From the IMG/VR virus record IMGVR_UViG_3300047548_000679, positions 1 through 31,755 of that record: DNA of 31,755 nucleotides, one strand, 5' to 3'. Below are positions 12,759 through 31,755 of this stretch, piece by piece. This stretch comes from a virus. Position 1 is the first letter of the stretch; every line of letters begins with the position of its first letter. Position numbers and translations under genes: made by a program. The notes under the pieces are model-generated. The model ran no database searches. It was not told the origin of the DNA and was given only the letters and a program-made list of their open reading frames with translations.

Positions 12759-13630
12759 CAATTCAAGTTGGTGGCACTGCGCAAGGGCGCCGTTACAAAC
12801 TCATGGTTGCTGGTTGCAGCTTTTCGGCCAAGAGCCAATACTTGCCAGGCACAAGCTGGAGTGAAGTGTTGGCAAAGAAACTAGACTGGGATCTAGTTAA
12901 TCTAGCACGACAAGGTTGCAGCAACGGCGGCATACGTATTCAAATTGATGAGATACGTCGCCAACGTCCAGACTTTGCCATTGTCAGTCCAACGTTTTGG
13001 GACAGAATGGAAGTACCTGCACGAGCAGCACCTTATGACTGGAGCCAAAAGTCAGGCGGCTGGAATCCTCCCTTGGAGCGGCACCTGCAGGATCGCACAC
13101 GCAAAAACGGATATCGTAGAGAAGACGGCATCGACAATGTCAACTATGGCAACAACAATCACAACATGATTTGTGAAACTATCTTTACATTAGCTGAAAA
13201 CTATTCACATCCCATATACCGTCCGGTAAAAATTGATCGTGTGACACAGACTGCGGTGAGAGCTTGGATTGACGGCATCTACGACCCTGAGTGGAAAAAG
13301 CAACAAGACGAGTGGATCATGCGTGAAGGCATTCTAAGTTTGTTCTTGGAAGGTATTCCGTTTTTAGTACTGCCTAATCTGCTGTGGCCGCATGATATTA
13401 ACAATCCCACATTGTGGAGAGATGCATTTCCGTCTATCATCCCCGACAAGTACATACAATTAGATCCCAACAAGACACCACAGGCAGTGTGTGGTAACTA
13501 TCCTTTTGCTGGTACTGAAAATGACGATCCAGGCTATCACTCCAGCCCCGAGGGTCAGCGAGTAATTGCTGAAAACTTTTACAAGATAATAACTGAAAGT
13601 TTTGGGATTTCAACCCCAGTGTTGAAGTGA
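12755..13630 (+). CDS. SGNH/GDSL-type hydrolase, 291 aa
   Basis: After a short N-terminus comes LMVAGCSFSAKS (the block I Ser at 22 or 24), then NLARQGCSNGG, which corresponds to the Gly and Asn blocks that form the oxyanion hole. Near the C-terminus, DDPGYHSSPEGQ gives the Asp/His pair. Such proteins are serine esterases that remove or transfer acetyl groups on sugars. Repeated Trp and Asn in the middle (WIDGIYDPEW, NYGNNNHNM) suggests a sugar-binding insert. The ATG overlaps the PIG-L stop, so translation is coupled. The last 21 bases overlap the convergent minus-strand gene. The hydrolase call is moderately firm and the substrate is inferred only from neighbours. Confidence 0.7.
   Translation: MTIQVGGTAQGRRYKLMVAGCSFSAKSQYLPGTSWSEVLAKKLDWDLVNLARQGCSNGGIRIQIDEIRRQRPDFAIVSPTFWDRMEVPARAAPYDWSQKSGGWNPPLERHLQDRTRKNGYRREDGIDNVNYGNNNHNMICETIFTLAENYSHPIYRPVKIDRVTQTAVRAWIDGIYDPEWKKQQDEWIMREGILSLFLEGIPFLVLPNLLWPHDINNPTLWRDAFPSIIPDKYIQLDPNKTPQAVCGNYPFAGTENDDPGYHSSPEGQRVIAENFYKIITESFGISTPVLK
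13609..13626. other. Hairpin at the convergent gene junction
   Basis: TTCAAC at 13609-13614 pairs with GTTGAA at 13621-13626 around a 6-nt loop. It lies in the 21-base overlap of the two convergent genes, inside both coding ends. No T-run follows on either strand, so it is at best a weak RNA 3'-end or stabilising structure. Confidence 0.25.
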
Positions 13631-14683: not shown

Positions 14684-15543
14684 AGTTTAGATTTTACCGC
14701 AGCCAACATTGCATCATAGTTGGGAATGACATGCTGATCCCAGTCATACTGCATGCTGAGACTTAGGTCAGGTATTGCATCGCAAACAGCATTGTGCTCA
14801 TTGCCCCAACCTGTGAGTTGATCCAAGCTACTGTATTCATATCTACGCTGCCATTGATAGTCAACATTGCCTTGTAGCACTGCCCAATTACCCAAGAGTT
14901 CGTATTCGCTGAACCACTTGATGATATTGCCATTGCCCCAAGGAGGCACTGTGGGCATACCGGGAACAGCTTCAATGATGGCATCCAACCATTTTTTGTT
15001 GGGCCAACGGCTCTGTATGTGTTTTTTGAGACTTTGCATATCCTGTCCACGAACAGCACACAGTTCAGTTACAAAACAATGTGGACTGGGATGTGGGATG
15101 CCAGTAATTGCTTCAAACACACCATTGTAACTACCCTGCACTGTGTTTTCCAAAGCCATTAGGTTGAGCCGGTTGTCTCGGTAACACTGGTATGGTTGTA
15201 TCATGAAAGTGTCTACATCATGCATCAGCATAACGTCATGGTTGATGTAATCTAAGTAAGCCAATTTTATAGCCTGCTGACGCAGCCACCAACCGCGATA
15301 GTCGCCTTCAAAAACCCAGTTATTGACCTCGGGATAGTGTTGATATATTACTTCATCGTTAACGTAGTCAAACCTACTGGTGTCAATACCATAACGTTCA
15401 AACACTGGCCAAAGCTCTGCCTGTGGCACAGGACTAGCAATCACAGTGCGATCGATATTTTGCAAATAGTGATCAAACTGCAATGCAAAACAAGCATGGG
15501 GCACACGATATCGTGCTAGAAAAACAATGCGGGATATTGTCAT
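14680..15543 (-). CDS. Putative GT-A glycosyltransferase (DUF6492-like), 287 aa
   Basis: The signature [16 protein letters not shown] at 84-99 is followed by [10 protein letters not shown] (D109, D111), the metal-binding DxD of GT-A enzymes. It matches the signature of the plus-strand gene at 11410-12249, but here the DxD is intact. The C-terminal half has Trp- and His-rich segments (GWGNEHNAV) that may bind the acceptor. Start and stop overlap the flanking minus-strand genes by 4 bases each (ATGA), so all three are translated from one mRNA. It probably transfers a sugar. Its acceptor could be the product of the radical SAM partner or a surface glycan. Confidence 0.7.
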
Positions 15544-16544
15544 ACAATGTTACAACTGTTTACACAAGCATAGAGTCTGCCGTTGGCAATGCTGTCTTGT
15601 TGCCAGGATTGTTCTACTGCATCAAACCAAGACAAACAATGTTCCAAGGGATAGTGCAAGGCATTGTTTTCTTTAACAATGTCTGTTAACTGTTCATTAC
15701 CAGGATGATGCATAGAGTTGGGATAAAATCCAAGATAGCAACAAGGATACACTGATCCATCAGCAGCAAGATAGATTTCACGATGTATCTTGTGTTGGCA
15801 TCGTAAATTTAAAGTGCTGGTGTCTTTTTCAATGCGTATAGTTTTGGCGTTGAACCATGTGCGATGGCTTTCTAACAAATCATCAATCTTAGGGGCATGA
15901 TCATCGGGCTTGCCTAACCAGTGACTAAATTCCCCACGGCGTGTGTACACAGGACCACGATCTCGTCCATCCCAGATGTTTTCGAATCTAGCAAATCCAT
16001 ATTCTTTGGCAAGACGCTGGCATTCTGCTTCTTGATGTTGGTTGTGATCAAATGGCACAAACCTCCATATAGCATGTCCACCAGCAGCAATAAATGCACG
16101 GGCATTTTCTATCACACGGTTCCAGTCAGTGTCTTGTCGATACAAACTGTGTGTGTCGGCAAGGCCGTCTAGAGCAAAGCCAATTTGAACTCCAGGCAAA
16201 GCCATGCTGGCCCACCAGTCAGGGTTGCGAGCACCACCGTTGGTGTTGATATTGATCCGCACACCTTGATCGACTAGATACTTTACAATTTCTGCACCAT
16301 CACGGGCTAGTGCAAAGTCTCCAAGATTGCCGTTGAAGTTTGCCCCGTATGCTGTGTTTTGTTTGAGTTGTTGACACAGTTCGGGCGTGACTATGTGCCG
16401 AAACTGTTCCAGTGTAAGTTCGCACAGTGGGTACCCAGAATTGTAGTCACTACCACGATAGTTTCTAGGGCACATAGGGCAGCGAGCATTGCAACGAGTA
16501 GTTAATTCTACATGGATCCTGCGTATGTCAGGTAACTTTAGCAT
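15540..16544 (-). CDS. Radical SAM protein with SPASM-like C-terminal cysteines, 334 aa
   Basis: The CxxxCxxC cluster that binds the SAM-cleaving [4Fe-4S] centre is seen as [11 protein letters not shown] (C18, C22, C25). It is followed by a TIM-barrel pattern ([24 protein letters not shown]). The C-terminal part has [27 protein letters not shown] and a final CVNSC, typical of SPASM/twitch domains holding extra clusters. Such enzymes modify peptides or sugars. It is not QueE-like. The start was set at 16544: it opens directly into the core ([14 protein letters not shown]) and a TATAAATA lies 5 nt upstream. The longer frame from 16730 would run through the divergent plus-strand gene. It heads the minus-strand glycosyltransferase operon. 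Confidence 0.85.
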
Positions 16545-16549
16545 GGGAA

Positions 16550-16557
16550 TATTTATA
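16550..16557 (-). promoter_or_regulatory. Perfect late promoter octamer TATAAATA on the minus strand
   Basis: Read on the minus strand, the sequence is TATAAATA-TTCCC-ATG, with the octamer 5 nt before the radical SAM start. No ribosome-binding site is present, so the predicted mRNA is leaderless. It forms a divergent pair with the plus-strand octamer at 16570, with 12 bases between the two. Confidence 0.65.
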
Positions 16558-16569
16558 GGCGTGGTTTTT

Positions 16570-16577
16570 GATAAATA
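16570..16577 (+). promoter_or_regulatory. Late promoter octamer GATAAATA on the plus strand
   Basis: Seven of eight bases match TATAAATA. It ends 6 nt before the ATG at 16584, with no Shine-Dalgarno sequence, so it would give a leaderless transcript for the small gene that follows. Confidence 0.6.
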
Positions 16578-16583
16578 TACTTT

Positions 16584-16886
16584 ATGCAAAAACAATTTGT
16601 CACTGCTGTATGCGATGTTTACTGTAAGTGGACTGGAGAACATCCACGGTACAGAGCCTATGTCGAAGACGAGCTTTTCACTGAACGTACTTGGATATGG
16701 CGAGATATGTATCTTGAAGAAAGTTTTCAAATATACGCTTTGCCAGGCAAATACAGTTTGCGATACGAACTAGTCGATCCCGAAAACGCCAAGATCAAGA
16801 TGCGCAATCTTCGCATACTTAATGGTCCAGCAGTTATAACACCGCAAGGCGATATCGAAATATATACACCAGGACCCACACAATGA
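16584..16886 (+). CDS. Hypothetical protein, 100 aa
   Basis: I recognise no family. The product is rich in aromatic and acidic residues ([44 protein letters not shown]), with the alternating pattern of a small beta-barrel or beta-sandwich. An ATG with a late octamer 6 nt upstream marks the start. An overlapping frame at 16489-16773 lacks protein-like composition. The stop overlaps the next start (ATGA), which begins with the MRAREI leader. Its promoter and neighbours place it among late, possibly virion, proteins. Confidence 0.75.
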
Positions 16887-17086
16887 GAGCACGTGAAATC
16901 ATGGAAACTGCAACTACCAGTGCTGGCAGCATAGCACCAGTGTCAATGGCCATGGGCACAGTTTCAAGAAACGGTGGTTCCTTGTTAAGTGGTAAATATA
17001 CTAATGACCCAACGCCCAATACGCCGAGGGAGTATAAGAGGAACAAAAATGCTCGCAGACAGTTTAAAAACTCTCCTGGCAACTGA
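16883..17086 (+). CDS. Small MRAREI-leader protein, 67 aa
   Basis: The N-terminus [15 protein letters not shown] belongs to the leader group, and I-M-E followed by Thr could be a prohead-protease site. The body is low-complexity and polar, with the phrases SGKYTNDPTPNTPRE and KRNKNARRQFKNSPGN, so after cleavage it would leave a short basic peptide able to bind DNA, much like T4 internal peptides. The ATG overlaps the previous stop. The last 38 bases overlap the start of the Dps-like gene in another frame, and a late-promoter-like element and the Dps ribosome-binding site lie inside this gene. No enzyme function is expected. Confidence 0.7.
   Translation: MRAREIMETATTSAGSIAPVSMAMGTVSRNGGSLLSGKYTNDPTPNTPREYKRNKNARRQFKNSPGN
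16992..17000 (+). promoter_or_regulatory. Late-promoter-like element GTAAATATA inside the small leader gene
   Basis: The TAAATA core at 16993-16998 lies 50 nt before the ATG at 17049 and would give a leader containing the AGAGGA ribosome-binding site near 17037. It also lies 5 nt before an in-frame ATG at 17004, which would be a leaderless alternative start adding 15 residues to the Dps-like protein. Confidence 0.45.
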
Positions 17087-17492
17087 ATACGCCTTTGTAA
17101 TCAAGGCTCAGTTGTTTCACTGGAACGTAGAAGGCCCAGACTTTGCACAACTGCATGAGTTTTTTGGCGACATCTACGAAGAAGTCTACGACAATTCAAT
17201 TGATCAAACTGCTGAATACATTCGCATACTAGATGATTACACTCCAGGCAGCTTTGAACGTTTCACAGAACTGTCTGCTATCAAAGGGCAAACCAAGATT
17301 CCACGTGCCCGACTCATGATTGAAGAATTACTGGCCAACAACGGTCAAATGATTGAACTTCTTAACCAATGCTTCCAAGATGCTGAATCAGAAAATCAAC
17401 AGGGCATCATGGATTTCTTGGCACAGCGCATTGATGCCCACGGCAAGCATGGTTGGATGTTGAAGAGTTTTTTGAAAGACAGTAGAGCATGA
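17049..17492 (+). CDS. Dps/ferritin-like protein, 147 aa
   Basis: The sequence shows the Dps pattern: AQLFHWNVEGPDFAQLHEFF with H24 and H36 twelve residues apart, then D52 and E56 (SIDQTAEYI). These are the residues that form the ferroxidase site between two subunits. The four-helix length of about 147 residues fits Dps, and the basic extended N-terminal tail of bacterial Dps is short here. Dps proteins form 12-subunit shells that store iron and protect DNA. I chose the start at 17049 because an AGAGGA site precedes it and it matches the family's first helix. A GTG at 16989 and an ATG at 17004 in the same frame would add a basic extension. Function in the phage (DNA protection or iron removal) is inferred. 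Confidence 0.82.
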   Translation: MLADSLKTLLATEYAFVIKAQLFHWNVEGPDFAQLHEFFGDIYEEVYDNSIDQTAEYIRILDDYTPGSFERFTELSAIKGQTKIPRARLMIEELLANNGQMIELLNQCFQDAESENQQGIMDFLAQRIDAHGKHGWMLKSFLKDSRA

Positions 17493-19932: not shown

Positions 19933-22593
19933 ATGAGTTATATTGACGCACTATTTGATCGTGAGCACGATCGCATTCATGTTGTTGAGCGCAAGGATGG
20001 CGTTCGACACTATCAAGAGTTTCCAGCCAACTACATCTTTTACTATGATGATCCCCGGGGGAAGTTTCGCTCCATCTACGGGAATCCGGTTTCTCGTTTC
20101 AGCACCAGAAACAACAAAGAGTTTCGCAAAGAGATTCGCATACAGAGTGGAAAACAACTGTACGAAAGCGACATCAATCCAATCTTCCGTTGCTTAGAAG
20201 AAAACTACAAAAATCTCGATGCACCCACACTCCACACAGCAATATTCGACATCGAAGTAGCATTTGACCAAGAGCGTGGATTCTCGCCAGTCGAAGATCC
20301 ATTTAACCCCATTACAGCTATTTCGGTATACTTAGATTGGCTTGACCAGTTGATCACATTGGTAGTACCGCCAGCACACATGAGCTTGGAAACTGCTCAA
20401 GAAATTGCTGGCGAGTTTGAGAACACCATTGTGTTTACTGACGAAGGCGAAATGATCAAGACTTTCCTTGATCTCATTGATGATGCGGATGTGCTCACAG
20501 GTTGGAACTCAGAGGGTTACGATATTCCCTATACCATAAACCGATGCACCCGTGTACTCAGCAAAGATGACACACGGCGTTTTTGTTTGTGGGGACAACT
20601 GCCCAAACAGCGTATGTTTGAACGCTATGGTGCCGAAGCACAAACTTATGATCTTGTGGGTCGTGTACACATGGACTACATGCAACTGTATCGCAAGTAC
20701 ACATATGAAGAGCGACACAGCTACAGTTTGGATGCTATCTTGGAATACGAAGGACTTGATGGCAAGACCAAGTTTGAAGGCACACTGGATCAGCTTTACA
20801 ATCAAAACTTCAAGACATTTATTCAGTACAACCGACAAGATGTCAATGGTATTGCACAAATGGACAAGAAGTTGCGCTTCTTGGATCTAGCCAACGAACT
20901 GGCACATGCCAACACTGTGTTGCTACAAACCACCATGGGTGCCGTGGCAGTGACTGAACAAGCTATCATCAACGAAGCACACGAACGTGGCATGGTTGTA
21001 CCTAACCGCAAGCAAAGACTCACTGACGAGGACACACAGGCTGCTGGTGCTTATGTTGCCTATCCCAAGAAGGGCGTACACATGTGGATCGGTTCGGTTG
21101 ACATCAACTCACTGTATCCCAGTGCAATTCGTGCATGCAACATGGGACCAGAAACCATTGTAGGTCAACTGCGTCCAATCATGACTGACAGACTGATCAA
21201 GGAACGCATAGCCAAAGGACAGAGCTTTGCGGCTGCATGGGAAGGTTTGTTTGCTACACTGGAATACACCGCTGTGATGGAACAAAGTCGTGGCACAGAA
21301 ATTACCATTGACTGGGAAAACGGCGAGGAGAGCGTACACTCGGGTGCAGAAATTTGGCAGATGATCTTTGACTCAAATCAACCTTGGATCCTCACTGCCA
21401 ACGGTACTATTCTTACCTATGAGACAAAAGGTATCATTCCTGGACTACTGGAGCGTTGGTATGCTGAACGTAAAGAGTTGCAAGCAAAGAAAAAGGATGC
21501 CACTGACCCCAAGGAAATTGCATTCTGGGACAAGCGACAGTTGGTTAAAAAGATTAACCTCAACAGTTTGTACGGAGCTATTCTTAACCCGGGCTGTAGA
21601 TTCTTTGACAAGCGTATTGGCCAATCGACCACTCTTACTGGTCGTAGTATCGCCAAACACATGGATGCTTATCTCAATGAATGCATCACTGGTGAGTATG
21701 ACCACGTTGGGAAAAGCGTCATCTACGGAGATACTGATTCGTGCTATTTCTCCGCGTGGCCTGCGCTTAAAGCCGAAGTTGAACAAGGTCGGATGGAATG
21801 GAGCAAAGAAACGTGCATTGCACTGTATGACAGTCTTGCTGACCAAGTCAACGCGAGTTTCCCTGCATTCATGGAACAAGCATTTCACTGCCCAAGAGAT
21901 ATGGGCGCACTTATCAAATGCGGTCGTGAAACCGTAGCAGATCGTGGATTGTTCATTACCAAAAAGCGTTATGCTGTCAACGCCATTGACATTGAAGGCA
22001 AGCGCCTTGATGTAGAAGGCAAGATTGGCAAGACCAAGGCCACTGGCTTGGACTTAAAGCGCAGTGATACGCCAAAGATTATTCAAGAGTTTTTGCTGGA
22101 AATTCTAAATAAGCTACTAGCCGGTGCTGGCAAGGACGAGATTGTGGAACGTATCCGTGAGTTCAAATACGAATTCAAGGAGCGTCCGGGTTGGGAGAAA
22201 GGCAGTCCCAAACGTGTCAACAACTTGACCAAGTATGCTGCTGAGGAAGCTAGGTTGGGTAAAGCCAACATGCCGGGACATGTGCGAGCTGCCTTGAACT
22301 GGAATATGCTACGCAAAATGAACAGCGACAACTATTCAATGCAGATTGTAGACGGTATGAAAACTATTGTGTGCAAGCTCAAGCCTAATCCCCTGGGATG
22401 GACGTCAATCGGTTACCCCACAGACGAACAGCGACTACCACAGTGGTTCAAGGAATTGCCGTTCGATGATGGCGAAATGGAAGCCACTGTGGTTGATGGC
22501 AAGGTTGACAACTTGCTGGGTGTGTTGGACTGGGACCTTGCGTCTGCAACCAATACAGATAACACTTTTACAACACTGTTTAGTTTCGAATGA
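19933..22593 (+). CDS. 43: Family B DNA polymerase, gp43-like, 886 aa
   Basis: All family B motifs are present. In the 3'-5' exonuclease domain, FDIEVAFD has D106 and E108, GWNSEGYDIP has D197, and YNRQDV has D303. In the polymerase domain, motif A is DINSLYPS (D390), motif B is KKINLNSLYGA (539-549) and motif C is YGDTDS (D600, D602). The length is close to T4 gp43 (898 residues). The enzyme replicates the phage genome with proofreading and should bind the sliding clamp encoded downstream by its C-terminus (TFTTLFSFE), which resembles the hydrophobic clamp-binding tail of gp43. A GGAG site precedes the ATG, and the stop overlaps the methyltransferase-like gene (ATGA). No intron or split is seen. 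Confidence 0.97.
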   Translation: MSYIDALFDREHDRIHVVERKDGVRHYQEFPANYIFYYDDPRGKFRSIYGNPVSRFSTRNNKEFRKEIRIQSGKQLYESDINPIFRCLEENYKNLDAPTLHTAIFDIEVAFDQERGFSPVEDPFNPITAISVYLDWLDQLITLVVPPAHMSLETAQEIAGEFENTIVFTDEGEMIKTFLDLIDDADVLTGWNSEGYDIPYTINRCTRVLSKDDTRRFCLWGQLPKQRMFERYGAEAQTYDLVGRVHMDYMQLYRKYTYEERHSYSLDAILEYEGLDGKTKFEGTLDQLYNQNFKTFIQYNRQDVNGIAQMDKKLRFLDLANELAHANTVLLQTTMGAVAVTEQAIINEAHERGMVVPNRKQRLTDEDTQAAGAYVAYPKKGVHMWIGSVDINSLYPSAIRACNMGPETIVGQLRPIMTDRLIKERIAKGQSFAAAWEGLFATLEYTAVMEQSRGTEITIDWENGEESVHSGAEIWQMIFDSNQPWILTANGTILTYETKGIIPGLLERWYAERKELQAKKKDATDPKEIAFWDKRQLVKKINLNSLYGAILNPGCRFFDKRIGQSTTLTGRSIAKHMDAYLNECITGEYDHVGKSVIYGDTDSCYFSAWPALKAEVEQGRMEWSKETCIALYDSLADQVNASFPAFMEQAFHCPRDMGALIKCGRETVADRGLFITKKRYAVNAIDIEGKRLDVEGKIGKTKATGLDLKRSDTPKIIQEFLLEILNKLLAGAGKDEIVERIREFKYEFKERPGWEKGSPKRVNNLTKYAAEEARLGKANMPGHVRAALNWNMLRKMNSDNYSMQIVDGMKTIVCKLKPNPLGWTSIGYPTDEQRLPQWFKELPFDDGEMEATVVDGKVDNLLGVLDWDLASATNTDNTFTTLFSFE

Positions 22594-23534
22594 AGTTAAG
22601 TGATATTGTTGCATATCTAAACTTGTTGGACTCATTGTCGGTAAAATATGAGTGCAACGAGTCCATACGAAATCTCGAAGCTGTGTTACACATAGTGGTT
22701 CATCGCGAATTGCAATTTGATCAGTATCGAGAGGATTTGCAACAATCGTTTGACAACATCCATGCCAACATCAAGGAGTTTGATTCAACGCTGGATCGCT
22801 TGCGACTTCACTTACAGCAAGAGATCGAGCGACAGGCCCCTGAACACTTGCGTGAAAGCTTGAGGGTTTTTGAACACGAAATGCCATTTGAAACCAATGA
22901 CTATATTCTCAATCGTCAGCTGGCTTGCGATCCCGACAGTGATGTTATTTTGCGAAGCAAATTAAGGGCTTGCGCTGACTGGCGTTTGCCTGGTATGATC
23001 ATTGGGCCTGGCCGCGAAAGCTTTATTGAAGAACTGGTGCCCTTGGATCCATTGTATCTTGTGGATCAGCATCAAGAGCTGTTGGCACCTGCTGTGTTGC
23101 AATTCTCACCAGAGTATCAACGCAGACTTAGACCGTATGTGGTTTCTGATCGACAGATCAATCCCATACTTGGTGAATTGCCCAACAGTCAGTTTGGTTT
23201 TGTATTTGCCTACAACTACTTCAACTACAGACCAATTGAAATTATCAATCGTTATTTGGCCGAGATTGTCAACAAACTTAGACCTGGTGGCACATTTATC
23301 ATGACTTACAACAACTGTGATCGAGCACACGGTGTTGCATTGTCTGAGCGACATTGGATGATGTATACTCCGCGTCACATGATCATCAACTACGCCGAAA
23401 AGGTTGGACTAGAACATGTTGATGGTCAAGACGGTTTGGGTGACCTAAGCTGGCTGGAGTTTCGTAAACCTGGCAAAATTGAAAGCCTGCGCGGCGGACA
23501 AACATTGGCCAAAATATTTGCAATCAGTGAATAA
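22590..23534 (+). CDS. SAM-dependent methyltransferase-like protein, 314 aa
   Basis: Residues 1-110 are helical. The rest resembles a class I methyltransferase, with GPGRESF at 139-145 as a glycine-rich motif I candidate, LYLVDQ at 155-160 as the acidic end of strand 2, FVFAYNYFNY at 204-213 and KLRPGGTFIMTYNNCDR at 229-245, the usual strand 5 region. The substrate is unclear. TYNNCD is not a standard DNA-methyltransferase catalytic motif. The gene lies between polymerase and sliding clamp and overlaps the polymerase stop. In T4 this place holds regA and the clamp-loader genes, which are not here. DNA, protein or small-molecule methylation are all possible. Confidence 0.6.
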   Translation: MKLSDIVAYLNLLDSLSVKYECNESIRNLEAVLHIVVHRELQFDQYREDLQQSFDNIHANIKEFDSTLDRLRLHLQQEIERQAPEHLRESLRVFEHEMPFETNDYILNRQLACDPDSDVILRSKLRACADWRLPGMIIGPGRESFIEELVPLDPLYLVDQHQELLAPAVLQFSPEYQRRLRPYVVSDRQINPILGELPNSQFGFVFAYNYFNYRPIEIINRYLAEIVNKLRPGGTFIMTYNNCDRAHGVALSERHWMMYTPRHMIINYAEKVGLEHVDGQDGLGDLSWLEFRKPGKIESLRGGQTLAKIFAISE

Positions 23535-23564: not shown

Positions 23565-24287
23565 ATGAGAGATTATCTACTAGACTTAGTTGAACACACT
23601 TTTGATCTTGGCTGTATTGACCTAATTAAAATTGTTGGCGAGGATACCAAAACACAAATTGTTGGATTGGCTGAAGACCAAAGCGTTGTAATTCTTGGCA
23701 CACTGCACAATCCAGTAGCTGACTTTATTGGCACATTTGGTATGCCCAATCTCAGCAAACTTAAAACACTGCTGAACTTGCAGGAATATCGTGAAGATGC
23801 CAAGCTGACCATTACTCGTCGTGCCACAGGCGAACCTGATGGTATTGCATTTGAAAACAAAACTGGCGACTTTAAAAACAACTATCGCTTCATGGCTGAA
23901 GAGATTGTTAAAGAAAAGCTCAAGACTCCCAAGTTTGCTGGCGTAAACTGGCACATTGAGTTTGAACCTGCCAATGCTGCTATTCAGCGATTGAAGTGGC
24001 AAATGGCCGCCAACGTTGAAGAAGCCAACTTCCAAGCCAAGACTGAAAACGGCGATCTCAAGTTCTTCTTTGGTGACCACTCAACACACTCAGGTGCCTT
24101 TGTGTTCCATCCCGGAGTCAACGGCAACTTAAAACGTGCATGGTCGTGGCCTGCCAAACAGTTTGCCAGTATCATGGATCTAACTGGCGACAAGACTGTA
24201 CAAATCAGCGACGATGGCGCTGCTCAGATCACTGTTGATTCAGGACTGGCAGTTTACAAATACATTCTCCCAGCACAAAGCAAGTGA
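23565..24287 (+). CDS. 45: Sliding clamp, gp45-like, 240 aa
   Basis: The length is close to T4 gp45 (228 residues). The C-terminal sequence ITVDSGLAVYKYILPAQSK matches the final strand of gp45-type clamps, and the internal KKFFFGDH-like and SIMDLTGDKTVQISDDG strands fit the repeated clamp fold. The trimeric ring holds DNA polymerase on DNA and, in T4, also activates late transcription as a mobile enhancer with gp33 and gp55. The late octamers here imply the same dual use, although gp33 and gp55 are not in the window. An AAGGAG ribosome-binding site precedes the ATG. The stop overlaps the GTG start of the transglycosylase-like gene, so clamp and DNA modification are translationally linked. Confidence 0.85.
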   Translation: MRDYLLDLVEHTFDLGCIDLIKIVGEDTKTQIVGLAEDQSVVILGTLHNPVADFIGTFGMPNLSKLKTLLNLQEYREDAKLTITRRATGEPDGIAFENKTGDFKNNYRFMAEEIVKEKLKTPKFAGVNWHIEFEPANAAIQRLKWQMAANVEEANFQAKTENGDLKFFFGDHSTHSGAFVFHPGVNGNLKRAWSWPAKQFASIMDLTGDKTVQISDDGAAQITVDSGLAVYKYILPAQSK

Positions 24288-25852
24288 GCCAAGTAGAAAA
24301 ATTTCCACAGGACAATCTCACAGCAAAGCAATCGGACTATGCTGTGTTTTTGCCTGCCATCTCAGGCTTCTATGCTACATTTGTGGGCAGGCAAAGAAAT
24401 GAACCTTACGTTGATCCGGCGAGATTTCCACAGGGCCTTACTGACATGGAACAGCTTAATTGGCTCAACTCGACTAAGTCCTTGTTTCCATACAAGTGGA
24501 GCCTTTATAGTGGGGGACATGCCAACTTGGATCTTGCTAAACAAGATTGGAGCGAGGACATGGTCCGCAACAGAGAGGCCGGGTCATTTATACTGGGAGA
24601 CTCTGGCGGGTTCCAGATTGCCAAGGGTTTGTGGGAAGGTGATTGGAAAGCCAACTCAGGTTGTCCCAAGGCTCAGAAGAAGCGTGAACTCATTCTAAAC
24701 TGGTTAGACAATGTTGCTGACTATGGCATGATCCTTGATATTCCAACCTGGGTTATTCACAGCAAGGAAGCGTCAGCGGCCTGTGGTATCAAAACACTCA
24801 GCGAGGCGTTTGAAGCTACAAAGTTCAACAATGAATACTTTATGGCTAACCGCAAAGGCAAAAACAACGGCGGAGCAAAGTTCTTGAATGTGTTACAAGG
24901 TGACAATCACACGTCAGCTGAAACATGGTATCAAGAAATGAAAAAATATTGTGACCCTGCTCAATATCCCGATCGTCACTTTGATGGTTGGGCCATGGGA
25001 GGTCAGAATATGTGCGATGTACACTTGGTGTTAAAGCGCCTGGTGGCATTGCGCTACGATAACTTGCTGCAAGAAGGTGTGCATGATTGGATGCACTTCT
25101 TGGGTACTAGCAAGCTAGAGTGGGCAGTTCTCTTAACTGTCATTCAACGAGCCGTAAGGAAATATGTCAACCCATCGTTTACCATCTCTTTTGACTGCGC
25201 ATCCCCGTTCCTCGCAACAGCCAACGGGCAAGTTTATTTTGAAAACGTCTTCCCACAAGATGGAAAGTGGTCGTATCGCATGGCTCCTTCAGCCGATGAC
25301 AAAAAATATGCCACAGACACAAGACCTTGGTCAACCGGAGTTGTTGCTGACGGGATCTACCCCAATTGGCAAAACAGTCCTATAAGCAACTTATTGCAGA
25401 TGAAAGACATCTGCATTTACAAACCTGGTGATTTGAACAAGAACGGCAAAGAGGGCAAAACATCATGGGATAGTTTCTCATATGCATTGCTAATGGGCCA
25501 CAATGTTTGGATGCACTTAACTGCGGTACAAGAAGCCAATCAGCGTTTTGATCGTGGTGAGCATCCTGCTATGATGCGTCGAGATGGTGGCGATTATGCC
25601 TATTTCGAAGATATTGTGGAAGCTATTTTTGCCGCTCCGGATAGACAAACTGCCGAAGATATTATAGAATTATACTCAAGCTACTGGATGCAGATTGTTG
25701 GCACACGTGGATTCAAAGGTAAGAAGACCATGAATGCTCGCACTCAATTCAATGCTTTGTTTACATTTGAAGAACCCGAAGATACTAACCCCGATGATCT
25801 AAATACTGACGTATTAGACAAGATGGAAGAGGATATCCACAATGAATCGTGA
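24284..25852 (+). CDS. dpdA: TGT-fold DNA transglycosylase, DpdA-like, 522 aa
   Basis: The protein has the catalytic features of the tRNA-guanine transglycosylase superfamily: DSGGFQ at 106-111, the general-base motif, and FDCASPFLATANG with D304, which aligns with the nucleophile motif FDC-x-x-P-x-x-x-A-x-x-G. NVLQGDNH at 202-209 matches the substrate-loop QG element. The zinc CxCxxC...H site of tRNA enzymes is absent, and the protein is longer than TGT (about 375 residues), as in DpdA proteins that insert 7-deazaguanines into DNA. It begins with GTG overlapping the clamp stop, and its end overlaps the next gene by 11 bases. FolE, a QueD-like protein and a PP-loop ATPase lie downstream. DNA rather than tRNA as the substrate is inferred. 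Confidence 0.8.
   Translation: MSQVEKFPQDNLTAKQSDYAVFLPAISGFYATFVGRQRNEPYVDPARFPQGLTDMEQLNWLNSTKSLFPYKWSLYSGGHANLDLAKQDWSEDMVRNREAGSFILGDSGGFQIAKGLWEGDWKANSGCPKAQKKRELILNWLDNVADYGMILDIPTWVIHSKEASAACGIKTLSEAFEATKFNNEYFMANRKGKNNGGAKFLNVLQGDNHTSAETWYQEMKKYCDPAQYPDRHFDGWAMGGQNMCDVHLVLKRLVALRYDNLLQEGVHDWMHFLGTSKLEWAVLLTVIQRAVRKYVNPSFTISFDCASPFLATANGQVYFENVFPQDGKWSYRMAPSADDKKYATDTRPWSTGVVADGIYPNWQNSPISNLLQMKDICIYKPGDLNKNGKEGKTSWDSFSYALLMGHNVWMHLTAVQEANQRFDRGEHPAMMRRDGGDYAYFEDIVEAIFAAPDRQTAEDIIELYSSYWMQIVGTRGFKGKKTMNARTQFNALFTFEEPEDTNPDDLNTDVLDKMEEDIHNES
25799..25806 (+). promoter_or_regulatory. Late-promoter-like CTAAATAC at the end of the dpdA-like gene
   Basis: It is identical over ten bases (CTAAATACTG) to the site at 2073. 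The TAAATA core ends 36 nt before the ATG at 25842, with an AGAGGA site in between. It lies in coding sequence, so chance is possible. Confidence 0.3.
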
Positions 25853-26345
25853 AGGTCACGACAATACTAAATTTTTCTACGGCAAAGAAGTAGAAAAAAC
25901 TCCAGCATTTGGCAAACAAACATTGTTTGTAGTTGGTGTGCAACCAACAGAACATATTGCCAATCATATGCCCGGATGTGAGCATATCTTTTTTGGTGCC
26001 AATCACAGCTTCCATCCTGATCCAGATGATCACCTGGAGTGGCAGCGTTGGGAAAGCATGATTACACACTTCCTTGACAAAGGATACCTGTGCAGTCTTG
26101 ATATCCCTGTCAAGTGTGTCGAAGAGTTCAACGATTCTGGTTTGTGTGAGTACAACAACTTCATCCCACAGATTCGTGTAAGTATTCCTTACGTTAAACT
26201 GTGGAACTACAACACCATGGTAAAAATCGACGACAAAGATTTTGACGCAACCAACCCTGGCGTGTGGACACATAGTCTGCACAGTTTAATGACAAGAGAA
26301 ACTTTCACTGACTGGAGTCAGTACAACGAGGATGACCCACTATGA
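25842..26345 (+). CDS. Hypothetical protein between DpdA-like and QueD-like genes, 167 aa
   Basis: I recognise no family with certainty. The product has TLFVVGVQPTEHIA followed by CEHIFFGANHSFHPDPDDH, an aspartate-, histidine- and tryptophan-rich region, then an IPQIRVSIPYVKLWNY strand pattern. There is no CxxxCxxC, so it is not a radical SAM enzyme. The strong coupling to its neighbours (11-base overlap with the DpdA-like gene before it, ATGA overlap with the QueD-like gene after it) suggests it works in the same pathway. It might be a partner that supplies the step normally done by QueE, or a subunit of the transglycosylase. Both are guesses from position. Confidence 0.7.
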   Translation: MNREGHDNTKFFYGKEVEKTPAFGKQTLFVVGVQPTEHIANHMPGCEHIFFGANHSFHPDPDDHLEWQRWESMITHFLDKGYLCSLDIPVKCVEEFNDSGLCEYNNFIPQIRVSIPYVKLWNYNTMVKIDDKDFDATNPGVWTHSLHSLMTRETFTDWSQYNEDDPL

Positions 26346-26785
26346 ATCAAGCACAACGTGAACAAGTTGAAAGAATCAAAACCGCAGCAGAGCGTAAAAT
26401 CTGGGTTACGTTTCGTAAAGAAGGTATCCACCGCTATCCGGCAGCAGCAACTGATCCTGCGCTGGCGACAGGTGATGAATATGATGTTAGTTTTCTTGGC
26501 GTCCCTCATCGTCATATCTTCCATTTCCGGGTGTGGATTGATGTTCTACACAACGATCGCGATATTGAATTCATCCAATTCAAACGATGGCTCGAAAATC
26601 TCTATCGAGATGGAACCCTTCAACTCGACTACAAATCTTGCGAAATGATGTCAGACGATCTGTATCTACAGATTGCTGCAAGGTATCCTGACCGTGCGGT
26701 CTGGATTGAGGTTGCCGAAGATGGTGAAAACGGCGCACTCATCAAATATGAAACTCACCGACCTGTTCAATCCATTAATATCTAA
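26342..26785 (+). CDS. QueD-like (6-pyruvoyl-tetrahydropterin synthase-fold) protein, 147 aa
   Basis: The pattern GIHRYPAA (H30) and HRHIFHFRVWI (H56, H58) matches the three zinc ligands of the QueD/PTPS family (AAH and HGH). IEFIQFKRW fits the helix after the G-x-x-x-DF motif, LDYKSCEMMSDDLY fits the LD...T-x-E-x-L region, and WIEVAEDGENGALIKYE fits the final catalytic Glu strand. QueD turns dihydroneopterin triphosphate, the FolE product, into 6-carboxytetrahydropterin, the second step of preQ0 synthesis. The HGH motif reads HRH and the spacing from H30 is longer than usual, so the call is moderate. Overlap with the gene before and a nearby FolE support it. Confidence 0.55.
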   Translation: MNQAQREQVERIKTAAERKIWVTFRKEGIHRYPAAATDPALATGDEYDVSFLGVPHRHIFHFRVWIDVLHNDRDIEFIQFKRWLENLYRDGTLQLDYKSCEMMSDDLYLQIAARYPDRAVWIEVAEDGENGALIKYETHRPVQSINI

Positions 26786-26796
26786 TAGGAAATATC

Positions 26797-27018
26797 ATGG
26801 CAAAACCTGCTATCCGTCCCAACCCTCGCGTCAATGAAATCTTTGACGAACTGGAAAAGTTTATGACATTCTGTCAGGACTTTGGGTATCGTTACAACGA
26901 AGCAGACCTGCATAACTTCAAGAGTTATGCTTGGCAACAATACAACAAATTCTCACAGGGCAAGAACGCCAAGAACATGTGGGATGAAGACACTCGTCGT
27001 CTGGCACTGAAGTACTGA
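26797..27018 (+). CDS. Small hypothetical protein, 73 aa
   Basis: The product is basic at the N-terminus (MAKPAIRPNPRVNEIF) and then helical with many aromatic residues (FMTFCQDFGYRYNEADLHNF, YAWQQYNKF). It seems to be a compact three-helix domain. No family is recognised. An AGGA site precedes the ATG, the preceding stop is 11 bases away and the next start follows 1 base after its stop. It lies between the QueD-like gene and a coiled-coil protein in the same operon. Confidence 0.7.
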   Translation: MAKPAIRPNPRVNEIFDELEKFMTFCQDFGYRYNEADLHNFKSYAWQQYNKFSQGKNAKNMWDEDTRRLALKY

Positions 27019-27019
27019 C

Positions 27020-27472
27020 ATGAGCGGCGCAGCTAGAGAACCTGACCAGGCAGACTTTGACCTGGAACGCTTCATCGAGATGTTTGACGAAGCATTAACC
27101 AGTCGAGATCCGCGAGTGGTCAATGCACTACGCAGTCTCATGATGATGGTGGTACTAACTCGTCCCGAAGGCAGAGATAGTGGATTGCACGATCGAAATG
27201 TAGGCCCGCTGAGAAGATTGTACGATGACGTCAATCATCTAAATAATCGATTACATCGATTAGAGGACGAAACTCGACAAATCTTGCGACAAACAGCCCA
27301 ACAAGACGCATACAAAGAAGCCTACAAGTATGATTATCCCTACGAAAAGTATACTATGAAGGCCACGGCAGAGCTAGCGGCTCAAGTTGATCAAGATGTG
27401 CTGAATCAACTAAAACAACAGGCTGCGGCAAAGTTTGGTCGCGTCCCAAACAAAGGACTCTTAGACAAATGA
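27020..27472 (+). CDS. Coiled-coil hypothetical protein, 150 aa
   Basis: Residues 10-55 are helical (DLERFIEMFDEALTSRD), and residues about 68-100 form a clear coiled coil (RLYDDVNHLNNRLHRLEDE). A Tyr-rich stretch follows (YKEAYKYDYPYEKYT), then a helical tail ending in KGLLDK. No catalytic motif is seen. It starts 1 base after the preceding stop and overlaps the glycosyltransferase start by 4 bases (ATGA). A structural or adaptor role is likely but not proven. Confidence 0.7.
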   Translation: MSGAAREPDQADFDLERFIEMFDEALTSRDPRVVNALRSLMMMVVLTRPEGRDSGLHDRNVGPLRRLYDDVNHLNNRLHRLEDETRQILRQTAQQDAYKEAYKYDYPYEKYTMKATAELAAQVDQDVLNQLKQQAAAKFGRVPNKGLLDK

Positions 27473-28683
27473 GAAAACTATTTTACATGGGCTTGGAAAG
27501 TTACGAAGCCCGCTATACACTACAGCTCACAGAGTGGAATCGCCGTGTGTTCGAACGCCGTGGGCTGGACGTTGTCTATGTGCCCGGTCTTAATCTTGAC
27601 AACAGCAAGAAGATCAGCGTAGGACAGGTGTTGGATGCACATGGTCGCAGTTATTTTGCTATGAGCCAAATGATGAACTTGGTGCGACTCATGCAACAAG
27701 GTGATGTCACTGGCGATGATGTGATCTACTTTGAAGACATGTTCCAACCGGGCTTTGAAAGTCTTGGCTACATCATGAATCAGATTCCCCGAGAGCAATG
27801 CCCACGTATCTACGTTCGCTGCCTAGCACAGGCTATTGACCCCGATGACTTTGTGCATGTCTGGGGTATGAGCAAATGGATGAGTTTGTATGAGCAAATG
27901 GTCAATGAAATGGTGGCTTTCTCGGGGGGTGCAGTATTGGCTACCAACGAAGAAATGGTCGCTCATATGCGGATTGCTGGATGGACTGCTCCGATCTACA
28001 ACATTTCCGGCCTTGCATTTGGAAAAGAAGAAGTTCTTGAGCGCATTGGCGGTAAACAGAACATCAAACCGTTTGATTCGCGTACCCGGAGGGTGGGTTT
28101 CGCAGCTCGCTTTGACCAAGAGAAGCAACCTGGCTTCTTCATGGATCTCATTGAAATGTATGGTGAACTTACCAGTGAGCCGTGTGAGTTTGCAATATTC
28201 AGTGGCGGACCTCTCAGATCCAATAACCCTGCATATATTGAACGTGCCCGCCGTATGGAGGCAGAAGGCAAGCTCAAAATCTATGACGACTTAAAGAAGG
28301 ATGAGTATTATGCTCTTGTTAACGATACTCGTGTTCTGTTCAATTGTGCTCTTCAAGACTGGGTCAGCAACACAGTTTCAGAGGCTGACACTCTTGGTTG
28401 CAATGTACTATATCCTGCTTATCGCAGTTTCCCCGAGACTTTCGCCAATGATCCAAACCGTCTCTACGTACCTTGGAGCATAGATGACGCTTATCACAAG
28501 ATGCAGAACCTTCTCCGCGAACCTCATCACAACATGGGGCTTATTTCCGACTGGAACAATGCCACTGTGGATCGCATTGTTGATATTATTACTGGTAACG
28601 GTGAGCAATGGAACAGAGCGGGCAACCGCTATCGTGACCACGCTGCTCACGAAAAATATCAAGTTGTAAAGATCGAAGGATGA
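27469..28683 (+). CDS. GT-B type glycosyltransferase, 404 aa
   Basis: Two Rossmann-like halves are seen. The N-terminal half includes DVVYVPGLNLD and GDDVIYFEDMFQPG. The C-terminal half begins near RRVGFAARFDQEKQPGFFM, the usual start of the nucleotide-sugar domain, followed by FAIFSGGPLRSNN and NTVSEADTLGCNVLYP, equivalent to the E-x7-E region that binds the nucleotide sugar. These are features of the GT4-like group. It overlaps both neighbours by 4 bases and precedes GalE and a DegT-like protein, so it may use UDP-galactose or a derived sugar. It may glycosylate DNA bases, as T4 does, or a surface glycan. The placement among replication and deazaguanine genes makes DNA a serious option. Confidence 0.75.
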   Translation: MRKLFYMGLESYEARYTLQLTEWNRRVFERRGLDVVYVPGLNLDNSKKISVGQVLDAHGRSYFAMSQMMNLVRLMQQGDVTGDDVIYFEDMFQPGFESLGYIMNQIPREQCPRIYVRCLAQAIDPDDFVHVWGMSKWMSLYEQMVNEMVAFSGGAVLATNEEMVAHMRIAGWTAPIYNISGLAFGKEEVLERIGGKQNIKPFDSRTRRVGFAARFDQEKQPGFFMDLIEMYGELTSEPCEFAIFSGGPLRSNNPAYIERARRMEAEGKLKIYDDLKKDEYYALVNDTRVLFNCALQDWVSNTVSEADTLGCNVLYPAYRSFPETFANDPNRLYVPWSIDDAYHKMQNLLREPHHNMGLISDWNNATVDRIVDIITGNGEQWNRAGNRYRDHAAHEKYQVVKIEG

Positions 28684-29624
28684 GCACAGTTGTAGTAACC
28701 GGTGCTGCTGGCTATATTGGAGGGCAATGTGCTCTCCAATTAGTTGATGCAGGTCATAAGGTAGTGGGCATTGACCGTAGGCCTCTGCCACACCATCTTG
28801 GCGGGCTAATGGAGTTTGTGCAAGCAGACTTTGACAGCGACCAATCGTTTGTAAAGATCATTGCTGAGAGACCGGACGCTATCGTTCACTGTGCCGGCAC
28901 GAGTCTTGTGGGGCCAAGTATCAAAAACCCCAGCGATTACTACAACAACAATGTAGTCAAGACTTTGCACTTGCTGAACATAGTGTTGTCTGCCATCCCC
29001 AAGGCAAGATTCATTTTTAGTTCCAGCGCAGCAACATATGGTACGCCTGCGGCCAGCTTGCCTTGTCAAGAAACTGATGCATTAAAGCCCATCAGTCCCT
29101 ACGGCGAAAGCAAAATGATGGTGGAACAAATCCTTGCAGCCTATCATCGTGCCTACGGTCTTGATTATGTTGCGTTCCGTTACTTCAATGCCTGCGGAGC
29201 CGATCCCGAAGCACGACACGGACAAGAACTAGGTGCTACACATATCATTGCCAGGGTATTGGAAAGCATTGCCAACGGACAGGAGTTCGTACTCAATGGT
29301 AACAATTACGATACCCGCGATGGGACTTGCGTTCGTGACTATGTTCACGTTGATGATATTGCAAGGGCACATGTATTGGCATTGTCTCCAGAGATTCCTG
29401 CGGGCATCTATAACCTTGGATCTAACACAGGAACCAGCAATCAAGAGATTATTGCAGCAGCTGAGAGAATAACCGGACGCCAAGTCAAAGTCACACAAGG
29501 CGCTCGTCGTGAAGGTGATCCAGATTCTCTAGTGGCCAGCGCAGACAAGTTTAATAAACTGGTTTCGTGGAGACATTACGAGTTGGATGACATGATTCAA
29601 CATGCGTGGAATTGGTATGTTTGA
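28680..29624 (+). CDS. galE: UDP-glucose 4-epimerase-like NAD-dependent epimerase, 314 aa
   Basis: This is a short-chain dehydrogenase-type epimerase. The NAD-binding TGAAGYIGG has G8, G11 and G14. The active-site SSSAATYG and Y141-x-x-x-K145 (SPYGESK) are complete. RYFNACGADPEARHGQE fits the substrate region of GalE, and TRDGTCVRDYVHVDD is a GalE hallmark. It interconverts UDP-glucose and UDP-galactose or the N-acetyl forms in the host cytoplasm. The start overlaps the glycosyltransferase stop by 4 bases, and the downstream DegT-like gene overlaps its end. The enzyme probably supplies the sugar donor for the neighbouring transferase. Confidence 0.92.
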   Translation: MSTVVVTGAAGYIGGQCALQLVDAGHKVVGIDRRPLPHHLGGLMEFVQADFDSDQSFVKIIAERPDAIVHCAGTSLVGPSIKNPSDYYNNNVVKTLHLLNIVLSAIPKARFIFSSSAATYGTPAASLPCQETDALKPISPYGESKMMVEQILAAYHRAYGLDYVAFRYFNACGADPEARHGQELGATHIIARVLESIANGQEFVLNGNNYDTRDGTCVRDYVHVDDIARAHVLALSPEIPAGIYNLGSNTGTSNQEIIAAAERITGRQVKVTQGARREGDPDSLVASADKFNKLVSWRHYELDDMIQHAWNWYV

Positions 29625-30222
29625 GAAAATTAAAGAGTTTGAAGATAAGTTAGCAGCCTTTGCTGGGGCTCCGTATGCAATCATGACTGATTGCTGTACT
29701 CATGCGATCGAAATGTGCTTGCGGTACGATAAAATTAAGGAGTGCTCATTTACCCCATTTACGTATTTGAGTATTCCTATGACTATGCACAAGTTGGGTA
29801 TCAAATATGACTACTTTCCAGACAGCCTTCCGCATAGGCAACAATGGGTCGGTGAATACAAATTTGAAGGTACACGCATTTGGGACAGTGCTCGTAGATT
29901 AGAACGCAACATGTACCGCAAAGGCACAATGCAATGCTTGAGTTTTGGGCATACAAAGCCTTTACACATCGGCCACGGTGGTGCTATACTACTAGATGAC
30001 AAACAAGCATATGAAGCGATAATTCGTATGCGATATGACGGGCGCGATCTAAATATATCGCCCTGGGCGGAACAAAAGGAATTTAGAGTCGGATATCATT
30101 ACAAGCCAAGTATCGAAGATGCTATTCAAGGAACAGCATTGTTAGTTGGACTCGAAGAGTATTGCCCCGAACCTAAATTTGTTCAGTATCCAGATTTAAG
30201 AACTATTACCATCAAGGACTAG
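29617..30222 (+). CDS. Short DegT/DnrJ/EryC1-like PLP protein, 201 aa
   Basis: The sequence resembles the N-terminal large domain of sugar aminotransferases: FEDKLAAFAGAPYAIMTDCCTHAI at the start, then RIWDSARRL, and SFGHTKPLHIGHGGAILLDD, where the Lys matches the PLP-binding lysine in SFxxxKxxxxGxGG. A full family member has about 370-400 residues, so the C-terminal domain is missing. The DSA segment stands where the family has E/D-D-A. The start at 29617 (MFEKI) was preferred over 29602 because it matches the family start. It overlaps GalE by 8 bases. It might be an active minimal enzyme, a regulator of PLP sugars, or a remnant. Confidence 0.7.
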   Translation: MFEKIKEFEDKLAAFAGAPYAIMTDCCTHAIEMCLRYDKIKECSFTPFTYLSIPMTMHKLGIKYDYFPDSLPHRQQWVGEYKFEGTRIWDSARRLERNMYRKGTMQCLSFGHTKPLHIGHGGAILLDDKQAYEAIIRMRYDGRDLNISPWAEQKEFRVGYHYKPSIEDAIQGTALLVGLEEYCPEPKFVQYPDLRTITIKD

Positions 30223-30223
30223 C

Positions 30224-30925
30224 ATGACAGACAACAGTTTAAATCTATCACAAGTAATTCGTAAACGCATCACCAGTGAAGGAGGCCGCTTTTGGGCTGG
30301 CGACAACATCAGCCAGTGGATTACTGACAAAGAAAAAGAGATGTTGGTAGATGAGCTAACAACAAAATTTGAAGGTGTTCTTGACAGTCTAATTATTGAC
30401 CGCTATACAGATCCCAATAGCATGGGCACAGCCCGACGTTTAGCAAAGATGTATGTGTATGAAATCATGGCCGGCAGATACGAGGAGAGCCCATCAGCTA
30501 CAGCCTTCCCCAACGACACGGAAGGCAAGTATGAGGGCATGTTGGTTGTTCGTTCGGAGCTCAAAAGTATGTGTAGCCATCACCATCAACCTGTTTCTGG
30601 CGTGGCATACATTGGCATCATTGCTGGACCAAAACTCATTGGCCTATCTAAGTATAGCCGAATTGCACAATGGTGCGCCCGTCGCGGCACACTGCAAGAA
30701 GAGTTGTGCATGGATATTGCTCGAGAAATTGAATCGGCGACTGGTAGTGCTGACGTTGCTGTCTATATACAGGCCACGCACGGATGCTGCGAAAATCGCG
30801 GCATCATGGCGCACTCTAGTCTCACTCAGACCACTGTGCTTCACGGAGCTTTCAAAACAGATGCAGGCGTGAAGAAAGAGTTTTTTGACAACATCAAACT
30901 GCAACAGGACTTTGCACCACGATGA
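30224..30925 (+). CDS. folE: GTP cyclohydrolase I, FolE type, 233 aa
   Basis: The zinc ligands are seen as SMCSHHHQP (C117, with H119/H120) and TATHGCCENRG-like sequence with C188/C189. Here it reads IQATHGCCENRG with the substrate His at 186. GLSKYSRIAQWCARR corresponds to the conserved GLSKxxR of the family. FolE converts GTP to dihydroneopterin triphosphate, the first step in making folate, tetrahydropterin or 7-deazaguanine. In phages it usually feeds the preQ0 pathway. Its ATG is 1 base after the preceding stop, and the next gene overlaps its stop by 4 bases (ATGA). The 20 to 30 N-terminal residues are polar and probably not a targeting leader. Confidence 0.93.
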   Translation: MTDNSLNLSQVIRKRITSEGGRFWAGDNISQWITDKEKEMLVDELTTKFEGVLDSLIIDRYTDPNSMGTARRLAKMYVYEIMAGRYEESPSATAFPNDTEGKYEGMLVVRSELKSMCSHHHQPVSGVAYIGIIAGPKLIGLSKYSRIAQWCARRGTLQEELCMDIAREIESATGSADVAVYIQATHGCCENRGIMAHSSLTQTTVLHGAFKTDAGVKKEFFDNIKLQQDFAPR

Positions 30926-31755
30926 TCACAGTGCAGGGCGGCCATGACAATTGGTATACCTTGCACTTTGATAATGAATCAGCAAGTGCAGGTAATTTTG
31001 AAATGTCATTTGAATCGGGTCTAGCTCGTCCCATGAGCTGGACTGATGCTGCCGATTACACTGCACAACAAATTGCAAAGAAATACGACAATCTGTACCT
31101 TGCACTTAGTGGTGGGTTAGACAGTGAGTTTGTTGCTGACGTTCTTTGGCGTAACAAAATAAAATTTACTCCAGTCATAGTTTGTTTGCCACACTCAGCT
31201 GACCACCACTATGCCATAAAGTGGTGTCGAGATCGAGGCATTGAGCCACAGGTATTTGAACTAGAATTCAACGACCGACGTTTGTACCCCGAAGCTGAAC
31301 GACTTATAAATGCTCTGGGCTTTTATAGCAATGGTTGTGTGATTACTTCTTGGATCACTAATTGGGTACAGCAACAACAAGGACACCTAATCACAGGCGA
31401 ACCCACACTGGGGCAGAGATATTACCATCGTCCCATAACAGAGTTCATGGATGTGTGGTGGGTGCAGCTAATAAGCCAATTGGTGTTTCCTGATTACGAT
31501 CACCCCGCTGGCTTTATGATTTACACACCCGAAATAATGTTGTCACAGGCCATGCACCTAGACTCTTCCATTGACGATGTTGAAAGCCGGGCTAAATTAT
31601 ATGATCTACCATACCGTGCCAAGTTGAATCCACCACTTGACATCATCACCGATAGAATCCTACACAACATAATCAATGTTGGGAAGCTACGTTGGTCCGG
31701 GCCCATGACTGAGCAAGGCGGACATGGTTGGGATCGCAAAGTCTTAATAGAAAAA
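30922..31755 (+). CDS. PP-loop ATPase, QueC- or asparagine-synthase-like (3' partial)
   Basis: The frame is open to the window end (278 codons, no stop). It contains LALSGGLDSEF, the PP-loop SGGxDS that binds ATP pyrophosphate, followed by TPVIVCLP and the Asp/His-rich SADHHYAIKW, then GFYSNGCVITSWITNW. PP-loop enzymes adenylate a carboxyl or other group. QueC does this on 7-carboxy-7-deazaguanine to give preQ0. The Cys cluster CxGxxxxCxxC typical of QueC is not in the part visible here. The alternative is an asparagine-synthase-like amidotransferase domain. The N-terminal 60 residues are not a glutaminase domain, so it is not a Gat-QueC fusion. It overlaps folE by 4 bases, favouring a role in the same pathway. 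Confidence 0.75.
   Translation, partial: MITVQGGHDNWYTLHFDNESASAGNFEMSFESGLARPMSWTDAADYTAQQIAKKYDNLYLALSGGLDSEFVADVLWRNKIKFTPVIVCLPHSADHHYAIKWCRDRGIEPQVFELEFNDRRLYPEAERLINALGFYSNGCVITSWITNWVQQQQGHLITGEPTLGQRYYHRPITEFMDVWWVQLISQLVFPDYDHPAGFMIYTPEIMLSQAMHLDSSIDDVESRAKLYDLPYRAKLNPPLDIITDRILHNIINVGKLRWSGPMTEQGGHGWDRKVLIEK

Follow-up and report, generated by a model that had tools for sequence, protein, structure and literature searches.

The viral fragment IMGVR_UViG_3300047548_000679 from IMG/VR (31,755 bases, the whole of which is called the window here) carries in its last third a gene module that probably encodes a 7-deazaguanine DNA-modification system of a large phage lineage, one that lacks QueC and includes a sugar-adding glycosyltransferase. 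Its members, named by their first coordinate, include a transglycosylase of the tRNA-guanine transglycosylase (TGT) fold (24284), a companion protein (25842), a paralogue of the 6-pyruvoyl-tetrahydropterin synthase (PTPS) family (26342), a GT4-type glycosyltransferase (27469) and FolE. That a phage pathway for 7-deazaguanine DNA modification adjoins the replication genes is well supported, and some guanines in the phage DNA are very probably replaced by a 7-deazaguanine; a glycosylated form of this base in DNA is predicted. The module comes from a large freshwater phage, and the window probably derives from a very large phage genome, because one of the related stretches sits on a contig of 331,654 bases.

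The module forms a single operon-like block on the plus strand behind a family B DNA polymerase and a clamp-like gene. Its order is polymerase, methyltransferase-like gene, clamp-like gene, TGT-like gene, 25842, PTPS-like gene, two small open reading frames (ORFs), glycosyltransferase, epimerase, DegT-like gene, FolE and PP-loop gene (Table 1). Overlaps of 4 bases join clamp and TGT, 25842 and 26342, 27020 and glycosyltransferase, glycosyltransferase and epimerase, and FolE and PP-loop, while the TGT and 25842 genes overlap by 11 bases. A preliminary description of this DNA had reported both the block and several 4-base junctions, and comparison with relatives bears it out. Conservation was counted in the best 80 (L002-L081) of more than 600 IMG/VR stretches related to the 24284 protein, taking in only those with enough flanking sequence; the near-fixed gene order in them means that the block is not a chance reading. 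Because these loci share part of their ancestry, the counts speak for linkage and not for independent events; independence rests on the different phage lineages. The methyltransferase-like gene between polymerase and clamp (22590-23534) is kept in relatives yet evolves fast, with identities of 29-61% against about 70-89% for the polymerase.

The glycosyltransferase, which the preliminary description did not connect to the pathway, belongs with the 25842 protein to the same module as the transglycosylase and the 26342 protein. The window protein itself falls below the Pfam cut-off (PF13524, E 0.025), and members of its family exceed the PF00534 cut-off of 26.4 in phages X1 (45.5 bits) and BUCT-ZZ01 (26.5 bits). 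A homologue lies beside a 26342-family gene in ACP17 (gp124), PA5oct (gp167), Phosso and Synechococcus phage BUCT-ZZ01, and one gene away in X1. Across these phages the pairing persists with different gene orders and different replication neighbours, and the glycosyltransferase occurs with two types of transglycosylase, that of the window or DpdA2; none of the tested QueC phages has it. The reverse test, run with two glycosyltransferase queries, gave 82 anchored loci flanked on each side by 6 kb or more, and these contained a TGT-like gene in 81 cases, the 26342 family in 79, FolE in 77, the 25842 family in 69 and QueC in none, with a median gap of less than 300 bases between 26342 and glycosyltransferase genes. 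The 25842 family never occurs without the glycosyltransferase in the surveyed loci, and its homologues in named phages are confined to ACP17 and the PA5oct group, both of which carry the glycosyltransferase; structure comparison of the 25842 protein gave no confident fold match. Because the distributions are nested, 25842 within glycosyltransferase and glycosyltransferase within 26342, the pattern suggests that what the base pathway produces is the target of the glycosyltransferase and the 25842 protein.

The strongest rival explanation, which we nevertheless think unlikely, is that the glycosyltransferase, epimerase and DegT-like protein work in glycosylation of the surface or the virion and only happen to adjoin a sugar-free pathway yielding dDG or dCDG. 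The epimerase, DegT and PP-loop genes do look like surface-sugar cassettes, some phages with the 26342 family have no glycosyltransferase, and dDG requires no sugar. Against this, the glycosyltransferase accompanies the transglycosylase and the PTPS paralogue across several phage lineages whose gene orders, transglycosylase types and replication neighbours differ, and it is linked to both in 79 of the 82 reverse-test loci. Separately, a distant glycosyltransferase homologue in Xanthomonas phage PhiXhv-12 belongs to a row of genes that includes GlmS-like and BshB-like ones (L209:7735-10969), possibly for another sugar modification.

The enzymes upstream of the modified base are represented in the window by FolE, whose Pfam score of 129.7 bits against a cut-off of 27 leaves its earlier identification intact, and in relatives by QueD and QueE. 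Profile searches found true QueD in all ten larger relatives (phrog_2389, 'QueD-like', E 1e-35), a few kb 3' of the transglycosylase gene, at the point that matches the window end or shortly past it. Nine of the ten also carry QueE, after the QueD region; on the window the QueE profile gives no match, and the preliminary description had rightly reported the gene as missing there. Its suggestion that the 25842 protein sits in the place of QueE does not hold, as relatives have both; read as a hidden QueE, the protein gives only Prob 1 in hhalign and VIA Z 5.4-5.7, below noise. QueC, by comparison, rises above the cut-off in none of the ten larger relatives and in none of 200 surveyed loci from viral contigs and metagenome-assembled genomes. 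Among named phages, five QueC phages lack the 26342 family and 10 of 11 carriers of that family lack QueC, so the two are almost mutually exclusive (Fisher p 0.0014, with phages taken as independent, which is a generous assumption). Since QueC is absent, the pathway appears to stop at 7-carboxy-7-deazaguanine (CDG), which makes the PTPS paralogue the candidate for the next step.

The preliminary description had instead taken the PP-loop ATPase 30922 as a QueC candidate, with reference to the known phage set of FolE, QueD, QueE, QueC and DpdA that places preQ0-type bases in DNA. The zinc motif of QueC (PF06508) is C(x)8CxxCxxC (PMC13329287). This motif is missing from 30922 and four aligned relatives; the P-loop (SGGLDS, of the SGGxDS type) is the sole part that aligns with QueC (Prob 39), which rules the assignment out. 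The gene also lies in a stretch that varies between relatives, and its product is probably outside the pathway. What survives of the earlier proposal is the 7-deazaguanine pathway beside the replication genes, with a DpdA2-related transglycosylase and FolE in the window and QueD and QueE in relatives; the preQ0 assignment gives way to a CDG branch.

A classical preQ0 pathway could still operate if the transglycosylase inserted preQ0 or ADG made through host QueC. Many hosts have QueC, a YhhQ-type importer occurs in some relatives (3 of the 10 larger ones), and the DNA of the DpdA2 phage nt-1 carries dPreQ0, dADG and dG+ (PMC6884629). We regard this as improbable, given that relatives keep FolE, QueD and QueE and never QueC, that 30922 has no QueC zinc motif, and that the PTPS paralogue occurs where QueC is missing.

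The surroundings of QueD and FolE in relatives hold further genes. In some relatives the YhhQ-type deazaguanine transporter gene adjoins QueD (L032:20635-21261). A protein resembling KedN5-type B12 radical SAM methyltransferases follows directly after QueD in one (L015:17194-19119, NCBIfam E 6.8e-68), a similar large radical SAM gene stands near QueD in several, and 17 radical SAM matches fall in the 331-kb relative. A HIT-family protein is encoded immediately 3' of FolE in several relatives (L015:16186-16590).

The transglycosylase itself appears from its sequence to be a remote relative of DpdA2. The window protein has the DSGGFQ, LDxP, QG, GG and SFDC motifs, and among 30 aligned family members DSGGFQ, LDxP and QG are present in all and S[FY]D[CS] in 28, whereas none has the CxCxxC zinc motif that E. 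coli Tgt carries. In profile-profile comparison with hhalign, the family matches a DpdA2 profile (built on nt-1 YP_008125322 and relatives in X1, ACP17, Moby and pf16) with Prob 95.3 and E 2.2e-8, catalytic motifs in register, against Prob 17 for E. coli Tgt and no match to the DpdA of phage 9g. The earlier view of a DpdA-like enzyme that has the catalytic motifs but lacks a zinc site of the tRNA type is upheld. Pfam, PHROGs and NCBIfam gave no match to the 24284 product, and PDB sequence searches with the TGT-like and DpdA2 profiles returned nothing useful. Strong homologues are limited to PA5oct and its kin, Sinorhizobium phage Phosso, Vibrio phage 2.275.O and the more than 600 IMG/VR stretches; the 24284 profile is silent on 9g, CAjan, CP220 and HVTV-1 and matches the DpdA2 of Moby weakly (4e-5), and the DpdA2 profile finds nothing in the 331-kb relative. 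The window protein and those of PA5oct, Phosso and Vibrio phage 2.275.O would form a DpdA-type subfamily of their own, for which DNA is the likely substrate. A role in tRNA, with queuosine-type bases raised to aid translation, is very improbable: the fold and the use of FolE, QueD and QueE are shared with queuosine synthesis, and phages that have the pathway yet lack DpdA may modify tRNA (PMC6884629), but the 24284 protein lacks the tRNA-type zinc motif, has DpdA2 enzymes as its nearest relatives and is always encoded beside polymerase and clamp. It is also silent to the Pfam TGT model (PF01702), a hidden Markov model that detected tRNA TGT in 14 of 14 control genomes, although that model is silent on all 18 records, DpdA2-type phages included, and hence uninformative on membership.

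The 26342 protein matches phrog_17812 (E 6e-36), a family given no function, and its AlphaFold model (pLDDT 92.3) has the PTPS fold. Foldseek pairs the model with E. coli QueD (4ntk, prob 1.00, E 4.7e-5) and with archaeal PTPS, and comparison with QueD/PTPS structures gives VIA Z 10.8-11.8, at 21% identity to E. coli QueD. Among 30 family sequences, His30, His56, His58 and Glu126 are invariant; by analogy with QueD, the three histidines would bind zinc. At the position of the QueD catalytic Cys stands Leu52, and the segment with the Asp-His dyad is absent. True QueD is annotated together with a 26342-family gene in ACP17, phiST and RHph_I1_18, and a PTPS-family QueD was found both in the ten larger relatives and in all seven named 26342 carriers searched. 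The earlier label of QueD-like therefore stands for the fold but not for the enzyme: because the QueD Cys and Asp-His are missing and carriers encode true QueD too, the 26342 protein is a PTPS paralogue whose chemistry has changed. A reading of it as simply a second, divergent QueD, as its shared fold and 21% identity might suggest, is the least probable of the alternatives, since those catalytic residues are missing throughout the family and every larger relative and searched named carrier already has a QueD. A PDB sequence search with the 26342 profile gave nothing useful, and a scan for 26342 relatives anchored on phiST returned none. In Vibrio phage Bakedbeans (L167:6254-7405) and Chryseobacterium phage MA9V-3 (L171:6431-7312), longer N-terminal parts are fused to the 26342-type domain.

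Taken together, FolE, QueD and QueE would convert GTP to CDG, with QueD and QueE, by analogy with relatives, encoded just past the window end. The 26342 paralogue, with its putative zinc-binding His triad and substrate Glu, probably processes CDG in place of QueC; our leading guess for the reaction is a DpdL-type decarboxylation to 7-deazaguanine. The 24284 transglycosylase would then swap guanine in replicated DNA for the CDG-derived base, and the GT4 enzyme would attach a sugar, possibly assisted by the epimerase, through donor supply, and by the 25842 protein. Such DNA may be protected from host nucleases. Several points weigh against this reading. TGT membership of the 24284 protein is based on motifs and one profile-profile match; the 26342 family occurs without the glycosyltransferase in phiST, RHph_I1_18, Ahp1, Bakedbeans, MA9V-3 and D479; Vibrio phage D479 combines it with a partial QueC match; and neither QueD nor QueE lies within the window fragment. 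Plain 7-deazaguanine, moreover, has no obvious hydroxyl for a glycosyltransferase, so that the sugar would have to be placed directly on C7 or on another handle, or else the 26342 product is not 7-deazaguanine. A fuller version, which we put forward only tentatively, is a widespread aquatic phage lineage with glycosylated 7-deazaguanine, in which a CDG-derived base enters DNA through a new DpdA subfamily and receives its sugar from the GT4 enzyme with 25842 as accessory, possibly as a C7 C-glycoside.

Table 1. Features of the module and its context in the window; the last column gives the relatives that keep the gene, in order, among those with enough flank from the best 80 of more than 600.
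Feature	Position	Strand	Basis	Kept in relatives
Family B DNA polymerase (context)	19933..22593	+	Pfam E 1.1e-34	63/63
Sliding-clamp-like protein, upstream (context)	23565..24287	+	30% identity to Phosso 'sliding clamp'	77/77
Candidate DNA-guanine transglycosylase with TGT fold, of a new DpdA-type subfamily	24284..25852	+	Motifs and hhalign to DpdA2	
Conserved companion protein	25842..26345	+	Relatives; also ACP17 gp122, PA5oct gp121	75/75
PTPS/QueD-fold paralogue, candidate CDG-processing enzyme	26342..26785	+	AlphaFold model, Foldseek, phrog_17812	57/57
Small conserved ORF, 73 aa	26797..27018	+		56/56 with context
ORF, 150 aa	27020..27472	+		Not in every relative
GT4-type glycosyltransferase of the module	27469..28683	+	Family members over Pfam GT4 cut-offs; linkage	48/48
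Nucleotide-sugar epimerase, possible sugar-donor supply	28680..29624	+	Pfam Epimerase E 1.8e-57	40/40
Short DegT/DnrJ-like aminotransferase	29602..30222	+	Pfam E 3.3e-15	36/36
FolE, GTP cyclohydrolase I	30224..30925	+	Pfam E 1.1e-37; phrog_2197	32/33
PP-loop ATPase, not QueC, variable neighbour	30922..31755 (runs off end)	+	P-loop only	

Elsewhere in the window, positions 4512-9008 encode a protein of 1498 aa whose start resembles a nucleotidyltransferase and which has an Amidoligase_2 domain (Pfam E 1.9e-5), 12246-12758 a PIG-L-type deacetylase (Pfam E 7e-11) and 16989-17492 a ferritin-like protein (E 6e-20). A three-gene block at 13610-16730 lies on the minus strand of an otherwise plus-strand window. 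It includes a radical SAM/SPASM protein (15540-16730), which was considered as QueE and rejected, as it matches SPASM/twitch maturase models instead.

To our knowledge, glycosylated DNA bases are confined to pyrimidines and their derivatives, and we know of no report of sugar-decorated 7-deazaguanine in DNA. If the proposal is correct, a sugar placed on a purine-type base after transglycosylation would add a new class to the known DNA hypermodifications and might account for the host-nuclease resistance of many very large aquatic phages. The module offers as targets a PTPS paralogue that takes the place of QueC, a new subfamily of DNA transglycosylases, and the glycosyltransferase and small protein that travel with them. 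Cultured phages with module genes include the PA5oct/Paride group, ACP17, X1 and BUCT-ZZ01, whose DNA is directly testable.

Among known systems, the DpdA2-type DNA modification of Vibrio phage nt-1, which encodes ArcS (Hutinet et al. 2019, PMC6884629), shares with the window lineage a TGT-fold enzyme without the tRNA-type zinc motif and phage-encoded FolE, QueD and QueE. Unlike the window lineage, nt-1 has QueC and ArcS and neither PTPS paralogue nor glycosyltransferase, and its DpdA2 resembles the window transglycosylase, a separate subfamily, at profile level only. The QueD/6-pyruvoyl-tetrahydropterin synthase family (PF01242, 4ntk) shares with the 26342 protein the fold, the putative His triad and the Glu, whereas 26342 lacks the catalytic Cys and Asp-His and is co-encoded with true QueD. 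In 2023, work by Cui et al. in NAR reportedly found dDG and dCDG in the DNA of phages and named DpdL as the predicted decarboxylase of CDG. That route resembles the module in forming CDG with FolE, QueD and QueE without QueC, in using a dedicated enzyme to process it and in insertion by a DpdA; it is not known to include a glycosyltransferase or 25842-type partner. The DNA glucosyltransferases of phage T4 act on 5-hydroxymethylcytosine; they place a sugar on a phage DNA base after replication, as is predicted here, but on another base and handle, whereas the enzyme here is of GT4 type and linked to a transglycosylase. Queuosine is glycosylated in eukaryotic tRNA, which is likewise a sugar on a 7-deazaguanine nucleoside, although there the substrate is tRNA, the enzymes are eukaryotic, and the handle is a cyclopentenediol that is absent here.

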